From: Nitrospira sp.
Lineage (GTDB): Bacteria; Nitrospirota; Nitrospiria; Nitrospirales; Nitrospiraceae
Direction of reading: 5' to 3'
NCBI GenBank assembly: GCA_030123605.1
Contig: CP126123.1
Location: 558,001 to 622,000, forward strand
DNA: 64,000 nucleotides
The translations under genes were made by a program, and so were the position numbers. The notes under the pieces are model-generated. The model was not told the origin of the DNA and ran no database searches. It saw only the letters and a program-made list of their open reading frames with translations. Below, piece by piece: positions 37,298 through 44,156 of the stretch; within the stretch, counting starts at the first letter, position 1; each line of letters begins with the position of its first letter.

Positions 37298-37371
37298 CGT
37301 GACATTGAAGGCCGATCTGTCCCTATCATCGTTCCCACGACTTATCCGTTCCGATCGTGAAAGGATCGCGC

Positions 37372-39243
37372 ATGACTTCGTCTACTGTTGCAGCCACGCC
37401 TGAACTCCTGACCGTCCTGGCCAATAAAGCCACACAACTTCGTATCGACAGCGTCAAGGCGACGAGCGAGGCCGGGAGCGGCCATCCGTCAAGCTGTTGT
37501 TCGGCAGCGGACATTGCCGCGGTGTTGTTTTTTTCAGTGATGCGGTATGACCCGAAGAATCCCAAGTTGCCCAACAGCGACCGTTTCGTCCTTTCGAAAG
37601 GGCACGCGGCGCCCCTGCTCTATGCGGCCTGGGCGGAAGCCGGTCTGTTTCCCAAGTCGGACCTGCTGAAACTTCGTACGATTTCCTCCGACCTCGAAGG
37701 CCATCCGACTCCCCGCCTTCCCTTCGTGGACATGGCCACAGGGTCGTTGGGGCAGGGATTGCCGGCCGGTGTCGGTCTTGCCTTCAACGCGAAGTCCATC
37801 GACAAGACCGATTACCGTACCTACGTGTTGATGGGCGACGGAGAATCCGCCGAAGGCTCCGTGTGGGAAGCGGCGGAAGTCGCCCGCCACACCGCCTTGG
37901 ACAACCTCTGCGCCATCGTCGATGTGAACCGGCTGGGGCAAAGCGATCCGACCATGCTGCAGCATGACATGGAGGCCTATCGCGCCCGATGGGCGGGGTT
38001 CGGCTGGCACGCCATCGTCGTGGACGGCCATGATGTCGGCGCCCTGCTGACGGCCTTCGACGAGGCGGCGCGCACCAAGGGTCGACCGACGGTCCTGTTG
38101 GCGAAGACCTTCAAGGGGCATGGCATCTCCTTTATCGAGGATCTTCCGGATTGGCATGGAAAACCTCTGAAGAAGGGCGAGGAAACTCAGAAAGCTCTGG
38201 ATGAACTCACGCGCCAGTTGAAGCCCAATTCAACACAGCCGAAGATCCACCTGCCTACGGCAGGCAAGGCACCGGCGACTTCCAAGGGCACGATGGCCCC
38301 CGCGCCTTACAAGCTCGGCGATTCCGCCGCGACGCGGGAAGCCTTCGGAGTGGCGCTCCTGGCTCTGGGCGAAGCGAATCCGCTGGTGGTCGCCCTCGAT
38401 GCCGACGTGAAGAACTCCACGTACAGCGATAAGTTCGGCAAACGGTTCCCCGACCGATTCCTCGAAAACTTTATCGCCGAACAAAATATGCTAGGCGCCG
38501 CCGCCGGCATCGCGGCTTGCGGCAAGATTCCTTTCGTCGCCACCTTTGCCGCATTCTTCACGCGGGCCTACGATTTCATCCGCATGGCCGCCATCAGCCA
38601 GTCGAACCTGAAGCTGGTCGGGACGCACGTCGGCGTCAGCATCGGGGAAGACGGCCCGTCGCAGATGGGGCTGGAGGATTTGGCCATGATGTCGACCCAG
38701 CCCGGGGTGACGGTGTTGTACCCGTCCGACGCCCTGTCGATGTACAAGCTGGTCGAAGCGGCCGCCGCCCATAAGGGAATGGTGTATCTGCGGGCCGGTC
38801 GTCCCAAGACACCGGTGATCTATGGTTCCGATGAAACGTTTCGCATCGGCGGATCGAAAGTGATCCGGCAAAGCGCGGCGGATCAGCTGACGATCGTTGC
38901 CGCAGGCGTCACTCTGTTCGAAGCCTTGAAGGCGCATGAGCAATTGAAGGCCGCAGGGATCGCGACGCGCGTCGTGGATCTGTACAGCATCGTGCCGGTG
39001 GATCGGCAGGCGTTGGTCGACTGCGCGAAGGCGACGGGCGGGCGCTTCTTGACCGTCGAGGATCACTACGCCCATGGCGGAATCGGCGACGTCGTGCTGA
39101 GTGCGCTGGCGTCGGAAGGCGTACGGGTTCGGAAGTTGGCGGTACGTGAGATTCCGCGCAGCGGAAAGCCGGAGGAACTCGTCGATCATTTCGGAATCGG
39201 AGTACGTTCGATTGTCGAAGCCGCCAAAGAAATCCTCCGCTGA
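37372..39243 (+). CDS. tkt: Transketolase
   Basis: Transketolase moves two-carbon units between sugar phosphates in the pentose-phosphate and Calvin-type pathways. The 623-residue protein carries SEAGSGHPSSC, the thiamine-diphosphate motif GDGESAEGSVWEAAEVA...VDVN, and the catalytic Glu in FIAEQNMLGAAAG. Length and sequence resemble the shorter animal/archaeal-type enzymes rather than E. coli TktA (about 660). ATG 37372 has AAAGGA 7 bases upstream. It is divergent from the pyr operon and its 3' end overlaps the Crp/Fnr gene. Confidence 0.95.
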   Translation: MTSSTVAATPELLTVLANKATQLRIDSVKATSEAGSGHPSSCCSAADIAAVLFFSVMRYDPKNPKLPNSDRFVLSKGHAAPLLYAAWAEAGLFPKSDLLKLRTISSDLEGHPTPRLPFVDMATGSLGQGLPAGVGLAFNAKSIDKTDYRTYVLMGDGESAEGSVWEAAEVARHTALDNLCAIVDVNRLGQSDPTMLQHDMEAYRARWAGFGWHAIVVDGHDVGALLTAFDEAARTKGRPTVLLAKTFKGHGISFIEDLPDWHGKPLKKGEETQKALDELTRQLKPNSTQPKIHLPTAGKAPATSKGTMAPAPYKLGDSAATREAFGVALLALGEANPLVVALDADVKNSTYSDKFGKRFPDRFLENFIAEQNMLGAAAGIAACGKIPFVATFAAFFTRAYDFIRMAAISQSNLKLVGTHVGVSIGEDGPSQMGLEDLAMMSTQPGVTVLYPSDALSMYKLVEAAAAHKGMVYLRAGRPKTPVIYGSDETFRIGGSKVIRQSAADQLTIVAAGVTLFEALKAHEQLKAAGIATRVVDLYSIVPVDRQALVDCAKATGGRFLTVEDHYAHGGIGDVVLSALASEGVRVRKLAVREIPRSGKPEELVDHFGIGVRSIVEAAKEILR

Positions 39244-39940
39244 ACGGTCCGGCCAGGACGTTCCGGGCGGGCTGAACCAGATTCCCCTCCTCAACATCCT
39301 CAGCGCGAAGGATCGCCAGCAGGTCTTGGGCAACCTGACGGAAACCCGCTATGGGAGAGGGCAGTATATTTTTCGCGAAGGTGATCCCACCGAGTACTTC
39401 CATATCGTCAAAGAAGGCACGGTCAAGTGCGTCAAATCTTCCCTCGACGGGAAAGAATGCACGCTGAAGGTACTCATGCCGGGAGACTTGTTTTGCTGCG
39501 ACGCCGCCACGTTCGACGGAGCCTGCCATCCGGGGACGGCTCAACCGATGGGTGAGGTCAGCGTGTTGCGGATGCGGAAAGAGGCCTACTTCGACATGTT
39601 GCGGCGTAACCCAGACGCTGCGATGGAAGTCATTCGTTATCTGGGCAATCGGCTCAACGAAGCGCAGGAGAAGGCCAAGATCCTCGCGCTTGACCGGGCA
39701 GATCAACGATTGGCCTCCTTGCTGGTGGGTCTGGCTGAGCGAACGGGCGTCAATGAACCGAACGGTATTCGAGTGGCCGTTCGCCTCACCCGCGAGGATA
39801 TGGCGAATATGGTGGGGGTGACGACTGAAACCGCCATTCGGATCATGGCGCGGTTCAAGAAGGATCGTCTGGTGTCCGGGACCGCTGCGCGCCTCATCAT
39901 TCGCGACCTCCACAAACTGAAATTGTTGGCTTCCACGTAA
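39212..39940 (+). CDS. Crp/Fnr-family transcriptional regulator
   Basis: The protein has an N-terminal cyclic-nucleotide-binding-type beta barrel (LNILSAKDRQQVL, GQYIFREGDPTEYFHIVKEG, LMPGDLF) and a C-terminal winged helix (LTREDMANMVGVTTETAIRIM), about 240 residues in all. Cysteines occur at VKCVKS, KECTL, LFCCDAA and DGACHPG, but not in the N-terminal four-Cys Fnr pattern, so its signal (NO, redox, nucleotide) is open. The start is uncertain: TTG 39212 has GGAG upstream and overlaps tkt by 32 bases; GTG 39101 is less likely. It is directly followed by a palindromic operator and nirK. Confidence 0.85.
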   Translation: MSKPPKKSSAERSGQDVPGGLNQIPLLNILSAKDRQQVLGNLTETRYGRGQYIFREGDPTEYFHIVKEGTVKCVKSSLDGKECTLKVLMPGDLFCCDAATFDGACHPGTAQPMGEVSVLRMRKEAYFDMLRRNPDAAMEVIRYLGNRLNEAQEKAKILALDRADQRLASLLVGLAERTGVNEPNGIRVAVRLTREDMANMVGVTTETAIRIMARFKKDRLVSGTAARLIIRDLHKLKLLAST

Positions 39941-39970
39941 TTTTTTTCACGACAAACCGACAATCTTCAT

Positions 39971-39994
39971 AAAACATGACAATTGTCATGTTTT
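39971..39994. promoter_or_regulatory. Perfect 24-bp palindromic operator upstream of nirK
   Basis: The half-site AAAACATGACAA is followed by its exact complement TTGTCATGTTTT. Read as ATGAC-N4-GTCAT it has the half-site spacing of Crp/Fnr boxes and keeps the TGA core. Its centre (39982.5) lies 41.5 bases before the start expected from the -10 at 40012. It could also fold as a terminator hairpin after the regulator gene. Confidence 0.75.
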
Positions 39995-40017
39995 GTTGTC
40001 TGCGCCTCTCGTATGGT
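39990..40017 (+). promoter_or_regulatory. Putative activator-dependent nirK promoter
   Basis: A -10 candidate TATGGT (40012-40017) is preceded only by a poor -35 (GTTTTG, 39990-39995) lying in the palindrome edge. That is what a class II activator-dependent promoter would look like. The leader is about 74 bases, with AGGAGG before the ATG. Confidence 0.4.
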
Positions 40018-40097
40018 GCATCCTGACACAGCCCATTCGAGCGCTCCGAATGTGGAACGACGAGAGAGCAGCGCACAGCTAACTACAGGAGGCAGAC

Positions 40098-41099
40098 ATG
40101 CAACAGGGAGAAACGCAGCGGGTATCGGGACGCAGTCGGTGCAAGACGGCGTCCATTGCGGGGATAGCGTTGGGAGTGATCGCCGGCATGGCCGTCTCCG
40201 CTCACGCGAAGACGCATGACGTCAAAATGACGGCGGTGGAGACCGACATCGTGATCGACGGCAGCGGTGAACGATATGCCGCCTGGACGTTCAACGGACA
40301 ATTTCCAGGACCGGTGGTGCGTGTCACGGAAGGCGATACCATCAATTTCACCTTGACGAATCCGGAGACCAACAAAAATCCTCATGCCATGGACTTTCAT
40401 GCGGCGGAGATCGACTTCTTAAAGAACTATCGGGCGATCAACGCCGGTGAAACGATCAGCTTTACCTTCGTCGCCAAGAAGCCCGGAGTATTCTTTTACC
40501 ATTGCGGGGCGCCGCCGATGATTCAACACGTGGCGCGCGGCATGTTCGGGGCGATCATCGTGGATCCGAAGGACGCCAAGGTGTGGCCGAAGGCGGATCG
40601 GGAATATGTGTTGGTCCAGTCCGAATACTATAAGAATCCCAACGATGTGCAGGCGATGTTCGACCGGAAGTACGATGGGGTCTTGTTCAACGGCGGTATC
40701 TTCAAGTACCACCCGTTCGTGACCGGCGGCGGTAAGTTGGATGCGAAGCCCGGCGAGCGGGTGCGGTTCTACTTCGTCAATGCAGGTCCGAATGAGTTCT
40801 CCGCGTTACATCCGATCGGAGAAATCTGGGACAACGTGTACGAGAGCGGCAACCCTGCCAACAATCTGAAGGGCGTGCAGACCTACGTGGTCGGACCGGG
40901 GAGCGCGGCGACGTTTGACATCGTCGCGGAATCCGCCGGCGCTTATCCGATCGTGACGCACTCCCTCACGGGTGCCCTGCGCGGAGCCATCGCGGTGTTG
41001 GTGGCCGGGCCGGATGCCAAACCGGCGCCCTTGATGCCGATGGTGCCATGGGAAATCACCGTGCCGGAAACGGGCATTACGCCGCCTTCCGGACACTGA
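40098..41099 (+). CDS. nirK: Copper-containing nitrite reductase (NirK)
   Basis: NirK reduces nitrite to nitric oxide in the periplasm. The 333-residue protein has a signal peptide (IAGIALGVIAGMAVSAHA) and two cupredoxin domains. All copper ligands can be placed: type 1 His96, Cys136, His144, Met149 (PHAMDFH, FYHCGAPP, QHVARGMFG); type 2 His101, His135, His288 (VTHSL). The catalytic Asp99 and His238 (ALHPIGEIWD) are also present. ATG 40098 follows AGGAGG. It is first of a row of exported proteins and lies behind a Crp/Fnr-type palindrome. NO production or detoxification of nitrite are both possible. Confidence 0.93.
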   Translation: MQQGETQRVSGRSRCKTASIAGIALGVIAGMAVSAHAKTHDVKMTAVETDIVIDGSGERYAAWTFNGQFPGPVVRVTEGDTINFTLTNPETNKNPHAMDFHAAEIDFLKNYRAINAGETISFTFVAKKPGVFFYHCGAPPMIQHVARGMFGAIIVDPKDAKVWPKADREYVLVQSEYYKNPNDVQAMFDRKYDGVLFNGGIFKYHPFVTGGGKLDAKPGERVRFYFVNAGPNEFSALHPIGEIWDNVYESGNPANNLKGVQTYVVGPGSAATFDIVAESAGAYPIVTHSLTGALRGAIAVLVAGPDAKPAPLMPMVPWEITVPETGITPPSGH

Positions 41100-41109
41100 T
41101 GAAGTTCAG

Positions 41110-41141
41110 GGAGCGATCGGCCTTTCAGGGTCGATCGCTCC
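41110..41141 (+). terminator. Perfect hairpin after nirK
   Basis: GGAGCGATCG (41110-41119) pairs perfectly with CGATCGCTCC (41132-41141) around a 12-base loop, 10 bases after the nirK stop. The T-run is minimal (TT). It may terminate or stabilise the nirK message and so separate its level from that of downstream genes. Confidence 0.5.
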
Positions 41142-41202
41142 TTGCCGAGGAATACGATGATGGGTTTCTTGTTACAAGATCCTTGGTCGATGGGAGGTAT
41201 CG

Positions 41203-41550
41203 ATGCGACCACGTGGAATGGACCTGTGTTGCCTCCTCCTGATCGTGGGAGGATCGGCGACTTCGGCCGCTGCCGAACCCTCACACGAGCGCCTGACGCT
41301 CTCCTTATCCGGACCAGACTGTTCCGTCCAACGCCGGTCCATCGCCGAGGCGCTGTCACAACACTCGGGCGTCACACGCGTTGACCTGGAGACGGTGCCG
41401 GACCATGCGCTCCTGGATGTGGTGCGCGGTTCGGTAACCGCGGAGATTCTCACCACGGCGGTGAAATCGCGGTTGAACCCGGAGAGCGCTTGTCGCGTCG
41501 AATTGATGGAGTCCTGCGTCACCGCCGGTCCTCCCATGGCGAAGCATTGA
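41203..41550 (+). CDS. Exported small protein with HMA-like fold
   Basis: The 115-residue protein has a signal peptide (LCCLLLIVGGSATSAAAE). The ~85-residue mature part reads like a heavy-metal-associated (ferredoxin-like) domain: LTLSLSGPDC, then SIAEALSQHSGVTRVDLETV, LLDVVRGSVTAEILTTAV. The usual CxxC is replaced by a single Cys (GPDC), with two more Cys near the C-terminus (ACRVELMESC) that could complete a metal site or a disulphide. ATG 41203 follows GGGAGG. Directly downstream of nirK, it may be a copper chaperone or sensor, but this is inference. Confidence 0.6.
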   Translation: MRPRGMDLCCLLLIVGGSATSAAAEPSHERLTLSLSGPDCSVQRRSIAEALSQHSGVTRVDLETVPDHALLDVVRGSVTAEILTTAVKSRLNPESACRVELMESCVTAGPPMAKH

Positions 41551-41734
41551 ACCAGGGCCGTCGCTTCCACAGAGACAAGGTCGTGAGTGACGAAGCTCGG
41601 TGCCGTCGGAAAAAAGACCTTTCCGCCCACACATCCTGCCGAGTCGAGACCATGAAATCCAGCACCGCCTCCGACACCGTTTCGACGATGCGGTGACGTG
41701 CGGCTTCGGCAGTCCACCAGACGAAGGGCGAATC

Positions 41735-42346
41735 ATGCGGTCAAGGTGGACGACCATGTGGTGGCCGGCGGCTCTCCTGGCCGCGGCGTATTTCTGCACA
41801 GGCACCGGCCTCTGGGCGCAAGAAGCGGTGCTCGAATTCCCGATCCGGCCGTTCAACGTCGATGTCATGCTCCGCCAACAGACCTTCGCTCCCGACGATC
41901 GCGAAATCGGCGTGCAGGCCGGGATTACGGCCTTGCGATACGGGAATGTGGAGGTTCGGACCATCTACCAATATTTCAGCGTGCACACCCAGGAATTTCG
42001 AACCGATCAACATTCGGTCTTTCTGAATCCTCGCTGGAACAATTTCATCGATATTTTGGACTTTCCGAAACACAAGCCCTTGAACCGGACTATCAGGCAT
42101 CTGTTGTTCGGTCCATTGGAGGATCGAGCGGTACCGTACGTCGGTCTCCTTGGCGGTGGGGTGATGCCGGGTCCGGGGCACCGATCGCCGGGCCATTTGA
42201 TCGGAGGCCAGGTCGGGGTACGGTTTCCGGTCGCACGCAGTCTTTCCGTCGATATCGGAGTACAGTACACACAGTACGGCGTGGATTTCCGCGGCGAAGC
42301 GGGACAGGCGCAACAATGGGTATTCTTGACCGGCGTCCGATTTTAG
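41735..42346 (+). CDS. Exported protein, probable outer-membrane beta barrel
   Basis: The 203-residue protein has a signal peptide (MWWPAALLAAAYFCTGTGLWAQ) and a mature part rich in aromatic beta strands (EVRTIYQYFSVHTQEF, LIGGQVGVRFPVARSLSVDIGVQYTQYG) that ends in Phe (VFLTGVRF), the classical terminal residue of outer-membrane barrels. It may be a small barrel of the PagL/OmpW size range, but no family can be named. I choose ATG 41735; the open frame upstream to 41600 is not family-like. The next gene overlaps its 3' end by 31 bases. Confidence 0.6.
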   Translation: MRSRWTTMWWPAALLAAAYFCTGTGLWAQEAVLEFPIRPFNVDVMLRQQTFAPDDREIGVQAGITALRYGNVEVRTIYQYFSVHTQEFRTDQHSVFLNPRWNNFIDILDFPKHKPLNRTIRHLLFGPLEDRAVPYVGLLGGGVMPGPGHRSPGHLIGGQVGVRFPVARSLSVDIGVQYTQYGVDFRGEAGQAQQWVFLTGVRF

Positions 42347-43377
42347 CGCGCGTGCGGCCAAGCCGGTTGGGATGGACGGCGATGCTCCTCCTGCTCCTGC
42401 CCGGTTGTGGTCTGCTCATCGATGCCGTCGAAAAGGTGTGGCCCGTCACCGGGAACGAGGTGGATGCGATCTGCACCCGCTCGCGGGTGCAGATCGGCTT
42501 GGCCATGGAACCCTTCCGACCGTTCGTGTTTCCGACCATCTGGACCGACGAGGGGGCTCGCGTGAGCGGACTGGACGTCGAACTCGTGCGTGCGATGACC
42601 GATGAATTGTCTCGGCGCTGTGGTCGTCCCATAACGCCTGTCTTGCACCTGGTGCGGTTCAGGGATCTCTTTCGATTGTTGAATGAGGGACAGCTCGATT
42701 GGTTCGTGTCTGCGGTGGCGGCGAATATCCCTGCGCCGGATCGGGCCGGCGTCGCCTATTCGATTCCCTATTTCTATGGCGGTGGGAGCGGCGGCATGGC
42801 GAGGAATCACGAGGTCCTCGACCGGGTGCGGACGAACCTCCGGGAACAAACAACCCACCCCCATCCGGACCGACTCGCGGTGACGCGGCACGCCCTGGAC
42901 GGATTGACGATCGCGGTGCAGGACGGCACCAGCGCCTATCACTATGCGGAGGCGAACCTGAGCGCCAACCGGTTGCTCGTGTGCGATTCGCTACCCGCCG
43001 CCTTCGAATATGCGGACTCCCAGGCGACGCCTCCGATCGACGTCATTCTGGGCGCTCAGCCGGTGTTGGAGTACATGGTGACAAGGGTGCGCAAGGATTG
43101 GGCCTTGTTGACCCGCGACAACGGGGCGCCGTTGTTGTTGACGAAGGGTCACTATGTGGTCGCGATGGCGGAGGAAAGTTACCGGTTGCGTTGGCTGGTC
43201 AATGACCTGTTGTTGAAGTTGGATGAGTCCGGCCGGCTGCAGGAGATGCGGAAGCGCTGGCTCGATGAGGAGTACGCCTTTCCACGGCGCGCCTCGTTGG
43301 AGGGGTTGCCGTTCGATGTCGAAAAAATGGCGGCCCACTATACTCAGGGGACTTGTCGTATCAAGCCGGAGCCCTGA
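42316..43377 (+). CDS. Family-3 solute-binding lipoprotein without a transporter
   Basis: The 353-residue protein has a hydrophobic leader ending LLLLPGC (lipobox-like, about residue 31) and a periplasmic binding protein fold of the amino-acid (SBP_bac_3) type: VQIGLAMEPFRPFVFPTIW, GLDVELVRAMTDEL, LLNEGQLDWFVSAVA, YSIPYFYGG, LTIAVQDGTSAYHYAEANL, LLLKLDESGRLQEMRKRWL. There is no ABC permease or ATPase nearby, so it may be a ligand sensor rather than an importer subunit. ATG 42316 overlaps the previous gene by 31 bases; internal alternatives are GTG 42352 and ATG 42382. Confidence 0.75.
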   Translation: MGILDRRPILARVRPSRLGWTAMLLLLLPGCGLLIDAVEKVWPVTGNEVDAICTRSRVQIGLAMEPFRPFVFPTIWTDEGARVSGLDVELVRAMTDELSRRCGRPITPVLHLVRFRDLFRLLNEGQLDWFVSAVAANIPAPDRAGVAYSIPYFYGGGSGGMARNHEVLDRVRTNLREQTTHPHPDRLAVTRHALDGLTIAVQDGTSAYHYAEANLSANRLLVCDSLPAAFEYADSQATPPIDVILGAQPVLEYMVTRVRKDWALLTRDNGAPLLLTKGHYVVAMAEESYRLRWLVNDLLLKLDESGRLQEMRKRWLDEEYAFPRRASLEGLPFDVEKMAAHYTQGTCRIKPEP

Positions 43378-43400
43378 ATGTTCCGAATAGGAGGACGATC

Positions 43401-44156
43401 ATGAAGAGGCATGGGGTTTTCGCGTTGATGGTGGCCGTCACCCTGATGATCGGTCAGCTACCCGCGGAGGCCGTGGAACGGGCGGAAGCGGAGGAGACCG
43501 CCAGGTTATTGGCCAAACTCCTGCAATCCGGCCGCATCGTGATCGAGCGCAATCAATCGCTGATCGATGATCCCCACAAGGGCGAGAAGGGATTCACGCC
43601 GGACCTGTTCGAACAACAACTAGCGCAGGAATTTCGTCTCAAGACAGGGATCGACCTGACCTCGCTATCCAAGACACCGGTGTCCACGACGCTCCCGCCG
43701 CTGGCCAAGGAACTCTTGCCCGCGTTGGTGCAGGCCAGTCGAGAGGTGATCCGCGAGGCTCAGGTGGTCATCAATCAGCGGGGCATCGGTTATAAAAACT
43801 TCATCCCGGCGACCTATGGGAGTCAGGCTTCGGCACGCTTTTCACGGTCATCCCATGTGCGTCTGAAGCAAACGACCAATCAGCCGCGGAATCCGAAAAA
43901 CGAGCCGGATGAATATGAGGCGTCGGTATTGCAGTGGCTCGCGGGTCGACCGCGCGCCGAAGCGTATGTCAGTGAGTTGACCGAGGAGGGGCGCACGTTG
44001 CGGGTGGTCATGCCGATCTACTATGCCAAAGACTGTCTGACCTGTCACGGCGAACCGAAGGGCGACCTCGACATCTCCGGCTATCCGAAGGAAGGGCACA
44101 AGGAAGGCGACCTCGCGGGAGCCATCACGGTGACTGCGCCCTTGACGTCGCGATGA
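43401..44156 (+). CDS. DUF3365 (Tll0287-like) periplasmic c-type haem protein
   Basis: The 251-residue exported protein (signal peptide VFALMVAVTLMIGQLPAEA) matches the Tll0287-like DUF3365 layout: a helical N-terminal half (LLAKLLQSGRIVIERNQ) and a PAS-like C-terminal half with one haem site, CLTCHGEPKGDLDISGYPKE (Cys212, Cys215, His216). The C-terminal GDLAGAITVTAPL is also typical. Such domains are thought to act as redox or gas sensors, often fused to signalling modules; this one stands alone. ATG 43401 follows AGGAGG, 23 bases after the binding-protein gene, so both are probably in one operon with nirK. Confidence 0.82.
   Translation: MKRHGVFALMVAVTLMIGQLPAEAVERAEAEETARLLAKLLQSGRIVIERNQSLIDDPHKGEKGFTPDLFEQQLAQEFRLKTGIDLTSLSKTPVSTTLPPLAKELLPALVQASREVIREAQVVINQRGIGYKNFIPATYGSQASARFSRSSHVRLKQTTNQPRNPKNEPDEYEASVLQWLAGRPRAEAYVSELTEEGRTLRVVMPIYYAKDCLTCHGEPKGDLDISGYPKEGHKEGDLAGAITVTAPLTSR

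Follow-up and report, generated by a model that had tools for sequence, protein, structure and literature searches.

A Crp/Fnr-family regulator tied to nirK by a conserved palindrome, beside a separable envelope gene cassette, in Nitrospira

Genes and proteins of the nirK locus

The window, that is, the whole stretch of 64,000 nucleotides that was analysed, comprises positions 558001-622000 of a 4.32-Mb Nitrospira genome. According to gene calls and Pfam, six plus-strand genes occupy 39212-44156, encoding in order a Crp/Fnr-family regulator (crp), NirK (nirK), an HMA-fold protein (hma), a predicted outer-membrane barrel (omp), a solute-binding lipoprotein (sbp) and a DUF3365 protein, and in this respect the sequence-only reading, made from the letters before the present analysis, had described the locus as it is. 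It had also stated that the usual nir/nor partners are absent, and indeed nor, nirV and nirN were found neither between nor directly beside the six genes. Hereafter, the regulator and nirK are referred to as unit A, and omp, sbp and the DUF3365 gene as unit B. The transketolase gene (tkt, 37357-39243) lies upstream, and convergent cupin and HdrB-like genes lie downstream. The regulator frame overlaps the end of tkt (window 39101-39243), and since tkt adjoins crp in almost every locus, both genes may be read as one transcript. In the literature we found no description of the six-gene set, of Nitrospira nirK together with DUF3365, or of a nirK-globin pairing.

The regulator (39212..39940, plus strand, with a TTG start assumed) matches PF00027 and PF13545 above cut-off; the genome encodes just one other HTH_Crp_2 protein. 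Among 26 aligned sequences, C49, C71, C72 and H82 (numbered from 39284) are invariant, and the recognition-helix Glu and Arg are retained as the invariant residues E182 and R186. The top PDB profile match is CooA, the CO-sensing haem Crp (PDB 2fmy, E 1e-25), whose 'GDIFCTH' aligns with the 'GDLFCC' of the regulator. Unlike CooA, the regulator carries inserted residues between the motif and the strand that follows. In addition, the His of the CooA 'FCTH' motif, which we take to be a haem ligand, is replaced by Asp at the aligned position ('FCCD'), and the identification as CooA was rejected. Denitrification regulators of the NnrR/DNR/FNR type share with the window protein the family, the nirK target and, in their operators, an architecture of two inverted half-sites 4 bp apart. 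The window regulator differs from them, however, in a predicted regulon of nirK only, in the half-site ATGAY, in an invariant Cys pair within the sensory domain and in lacking the FNR-type N-terminal Cys cluster, no Cys being found before residue 49 of the aligned part. For a Nitrospira defluvii-like MAG, an NnrR homologue has been reported (PMC8510549); it may be the window protein or a different one.

By homology and ligand residues, nirK (40098..41099, plus strand) encodes an exported, two-domain copper nitrite reductase of the nitrifier type. The ligands of type 1 copper (H96, C136, H144 and M149) and of type 2 copper (H101, H135 and H288) are all present by motif position, as are the catalytic residues D99 and H238 (motif positions, alignment to 4kns). 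The score of 197.7 bits falls below the curated TIGR02376 cut-off of 296.3, which is a score threshold and not a structural feature; the closest solved relatives are nitrite reductases, with chain 4kns the nearest (E 1.8e-106). This chain, which we take to be the Nitrosomonas europaea-type NirK, is likewise two-domain with all copper ligands. The setting is different, as the regulator and the neighbour genes at the window nirK are not those of N. europaea, where nirK presumably adjoins ncgABC and nsrR.

The exported product of hma (41203..41550, plus strand) matches HMA domains in a profile search. Its AlphaFold core (pLDDT about 95) adopts the ferredoxin-like beta-alpha-beta-beta-alpha-beta fold, with MerP 1osd as the top PDB match. 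In 29 aligned sequences C40, C97, C105 and M102 are invariant and H68 is nearly so, which means three invariant Cys where a one-Cys protein had previously been noted. The protein thus shares fold and profile with metallochaperones of the MerP/CopZ type, as well as export with MerP, but departs from them in its Cys pattern: CxxC is absent, the first Cys alone being retained, and the two other invariant Cys lie near the C terminus. The gene also occurs away from nirK, e.g., as tkt-hma without nirK or unit B (L186). In another lineage (L182-L185, L187), it follows a PBP-like gene and an exported IPT/TIG-domain gene in a conserved three-gene set. Our hypothesis is that the HMA-fold protein probably handles periplasmic copper, for instance by loading NirK; the loading idea is weakened, however, because hma of the other lineage, with its PBP-like and IPT/TIG neighbours, adjoins neither NirK nor an obvious copper gene.

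The exported 203-aa protein encoded by omp (41735..42346, plus strand) is predicted to form an outer-membrane barrel of about eight strands. Eight long strands are predicted in a low-confidence model (pLDDT 57); there was no Pfam match and no significant fold match, the hits to OmpW, OprF, PagL and Ail being weak and non-significant. The next gene, sbp (42325..43377, plus strand), encodes an orphan family-3 solute-binding lipoprotein (PF00497, 37.6 bits against a cut-off of 26.4), in which the lipobox Cys C28 and four further Cys are invariant and the carboxylate-type Arg140 is nearly invariant; its best solved matches are amino-acid binders. It belongs to the same fold family as the binding proteins of family-3 ABC importers (PF00497) and mostly keeps their carboxylate-type Arg. 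It differs from them in the four extra invariant Cys and in being a lipoprotein within a barrel/haem cassette with no ABC permease or ATPase among the neighbours scanned.

The DUF3365 gene (43401..44156, plus strand; PF11845, 89.4 bits) encodes an exported stand-alone mono-haem Cache protein, Tll0287-like, whose CxxCH (C212, C215 and H216) is invariant in 22 sequences, and the alignment holds no other conserved Cys. Its export, its CxxCH and its stand-alone form are those of the stand-alone sCache_heme proteins (Tll0287, PDB 5b82; PMC12889525), but its N-terminal half is longer and, in contrast to the redox-type members, it is without a distal Cys and hence without Cys/His axial ligation. According to a 2026 preprint, a signalling-fused DUF3365/sCache_heme domain binds NO tightly, and a stand-alone Cys/His-ligated sCache_heme protein was found to be redox-like (PMC12889525). 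Because the window protein is stand-alone and yet without the distal Cys, it is assignable from sequence to neither the NO-binder nor the redox class. About ten Tll0287/DUF3365-like proteins are encoded in the window genome (G000), most of them stand-alone, and two have the same long N-terminal form as the DUF3365 protein next to nirK.

The palindrome before nirK and the transcript boundaries

The gap between crp and nirK contains a perfect 24-bp palindrome, AAAACATGACAATTGTCATGTTTT (39971..39994), with Crp/Fnr half-site spacing, which we propose as the operator of the regulator; both this element and a strong stem-loop directly after nirK had been overlooked by the sequence-only reading. A recognisable palindrome was found in 59 of 59 crp-nirK loci of relatives, in addition to the window (53 distinct sequences). 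The -10-like hexamer TATGGT (40012..40017, plus strand) stands 17 nt after the palindrome, and among the 53 distinct loci 35 have this spacing and the other 18 have one of 18 nt, with a hexamer of TATGGT, TATCCT or TATGCT in 46. Because the hexamer follows at a fixed 17-18 nt, the palindrome would be centred at about -41.5 if the start is placed by this hexamer. Such a centre is typical of the sites from which class II Crp/Fnr activators work.

In genome-wide scans, the palindrome pattern gave a single match within one mismatch in this genome, and the one further site at two mismatches equalled the count of the reversed-pattern control. Eleven genomes with the regulator had the site at nirK, the five other one-mismatch sites in them being as many as the control gave, and no site was detected in four genomes of the regulator-less clade. 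Where a relative has a second nirK, a further site usually precedes that copy as well. Three of the 11 (G030, G095 and G038) possess such a copy (G030:C1:4190844, G095:C1:1295600 and G038:C6:2013788; L177-L179), and in each of them a further palindrome, matching the consensus at every position, lies some 140-160 bp upstream of the second nirK match. Near these copies there are no partners from unit A or B other than nirK itself, and the second nirK is apparently controlled in trans by the crp beside the first copy. The motif TGAYN4RTCA occurred in just 4 of 44 nirK loci without a close regulator; two of these (L091 and L097) have a 43%-identical Crp upstream, and another (L133) is the second nirK of a regulator-bearing genome. 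A Fisher test of site against adjacent regulator yielded 5e-23, a value that is overstated since the loci share descent. No site of the right form was found before hma or omp in the loci. Since the operator tracks the regulator and stands at nirK copies, the regulator is predicted, with good support from these comparisons, to be a dedicated nirK switch, most likely serving nirK alone.

The stem-loop directly after the nirK stop (41109..41142, plus strand) has a best hairpin of -27.5 kcal/mol and a short T tract, resembling a terminator or an mRNA end. A hairpin at this place is present in most loci, with a median best energy of -24.2 versus -10.6 for shuffles; its stem sequence varies among genomes, and at L070 it carries a long T run. 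Neither the nirK-hma gap nor the hma-omp gap of the window drew a call in a terminator scan, and a simple scan for promoters and terminators gave no more matches than shuffles. Given the short T tract and the lack of a scan call at this place, termination after nirK in the window may be partial, with read-through into hma and unit B. The search for a promoter of unit B revealed a TTGC...AGACT-like stretch conserved in many relatives, of which the window copy is ambiguous, so far suggestive, in the relatives, of a dedicated promoter for this unit.

The six genes among relatives

The comparison of loci covered 113 distinct fetched stretches; its counts are of loci related by descent, not of independent events, and the full-order count leaves out loci cut at their 5' end. 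The full crp-nirK-hma-omp-sbp-DUF3365 order was found in 37 distinct loci, and 4 more are without hma alone. The sequence-only reading had taken the six genes for one module, to be given up if they did not co-occur with nirK in relatives. Co-occurrence was found in these 37 loci, and the gene order is indeed kept both within the genus and beyond it in other genera; the set is nevertheless unlikely to be one unit, as its parts separate.

Among 296 sampled Nitrospirota genomes, sbp was confined to one family, Nitrospiraceae, where it was present in 103 of 147 genomes and a nirK homologue in 138 of 147. Almost half of the sbp-bearing genomes have sbp and nirK on different contigs or hundreds of kb apart. 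A family-wide search, with coordinates compared by eye, placed 54 of 55 high-scoring sbp matches next to nirK, and no match of the lower-scoring class adjoined it. Of the class away from nirK, 13 loci were read; omp-sbp stood in order in every one, accompanied by DUF3365 in 11. At L145 (4289-9360), which has no crp, nirK or hma, tkt and cupin/hdrB directly flank unit B, while L124 and L130 carry crp-nirK-hma without unit B nearby. L145 looks as if the crp-nirK-hma block had been lost or never inserted. The flanking genes pyrB, pyrR, tkt, cupin and hdrB keep the same order in the genus. Judged by these comparisons, the single-module reading fails as an unlikely one, and at least two units would stand side by side; where they are adjacent, units A and B might still act together as a lineage-specific possibility.

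A second context of nirK was represented by 35 loci, in which the next gene encodes an exported truncated globin (PF01152), without a close regulator and without unit B. In the regulator-less clade (L151-L154, L089-L111), some of the loci read have, after nirK-globin, a gene for a c-type cytochrome-like protein and one for a sigma-54 activator. Because nirK of the other lineage precedes an exported truncated globin, and because a DUF3365/sCache_heme relative binds NO (PMC12889525), a nitrite/NO theme around nirK is plausible.

Two probable neighbouring units and the competing readings

In our judgement, the locus is likely to consist of two neighbouring units, the regulator and nirK with their own switch (unit A) and a separate envelope cassette (unit B). 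The analysis shows the gene content, the fold families, the conserved residues, the conservation of the operator and its tie to the regulator, and the separability of unit B. The stem-loop after nirK and the absence of the operator before hma and omp likewise favour two units. In the proposed mechanism, the Crp/Fnr-family protein would bind the 24-bp palindrome near -41.5 and, acting as a class II activator, turn on nirK upon a signal for which NO, nitrite, low oxygen and redox state are candidates, with the invariant Cys pair as the candidate sensing site. The regulon would be essentially nirK, including the second nirK in trans where there is one. The exported NirK would reduce nitrite to NO in the periplasm, with the HMA-fold protein handling copper there, for example in loading NirK. 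The omp-sbp-DUF3365 cassette, probably on its own transcript, would capture or sense a small ligand or a redox signal, adjoining nirK in one lineage without depending on it. Within this scheme we infer that the regulator binds DNA, that it activates nirK and does not repress it, and that the HMA-fold protein delivers copper, as well as any function given to unit B. A Crp/Fnr site that covers the -35 region can also block RNA polymerase, and the palindrome over that region could let the regulator repress nirK instead; we hold this to be unlikely, as the centre near -41.5 and the fixed spacing to the -10-like hexamer in 53 distinct loci make up the typical geometry of a class II activator.

That all six genes form one functional periplasmic module for nitrite/NO sensing or defence around NirK would fit the full order kept in 37 distinct loci of several genera, some with different downstream flanks, the NO binding of a signalling-fused DUF3365 protein (PMC12889525) and the lack of any called terminator-like site between nirK and hma or between hma and omp in the window. 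Such a module is nonetheless improbable, considering that unit B and crp-nirK-hma persist apart (L136-L150, L145, L124, L130), that the operator stands at nirK only and that second nirK copies under the same operator are without nearby partners. Somewhat more credible than either of these, if still the lesser prospect, is mere synteny, in which a stable stretch pyrB-pyrR-tkt ... cupin-hdrB holds the genes together with no functional link beyond crp-nirK; it overlaps with the two-unit reading and differs from it solely in denying hma and unit B a link to NirK. The order of pyrB, pyrR, tkt, cupin and hdrB in the genus speaks for synteny, as do L145, where unit B alone fills the space between tkt and cupin/hdrB, and L124, where nirK-hma is directly followed by cupin/hdrB. 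However, the order from tkt to DUF3365 is kept without a nearby cupin/hdrB (e.g., L054, L055 and L128, as well as L065 without hma), and omp-sbp-DUF3365 moves to other places as a set. Beyond the two-unit reading, one may imagine a two-part envelope NO system in nitrite oxidisers of the Nitrospiraceae, in which a private sensor of the Crp type, its new ligand site being the invariant Cys pair, would switch nirK alone, while a family-specific cassette of the barrel, the lipoprotein and an NO-binding haem Cache protein would capture NO or a related signal without kinase or transporter; we regard this extension as speculative, with little chance of being right.

The physiological role of NirK in nitrite-oxidising Nitrospira remains to be determined (PMC6606698). 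Correcting the single-module reading avoids a misleading annotation of the locus and sets unit B apart as an uncharacterised envelope cassette, apparently family-specific within the Nitrospirota sample. With nirK as its sole predicted target and a clear layout of operator and promoter, the regulator renders the role of NirK testable, and identifying the signal of this regulator would tell when nitrite-oxidising Nitrospira make NO.
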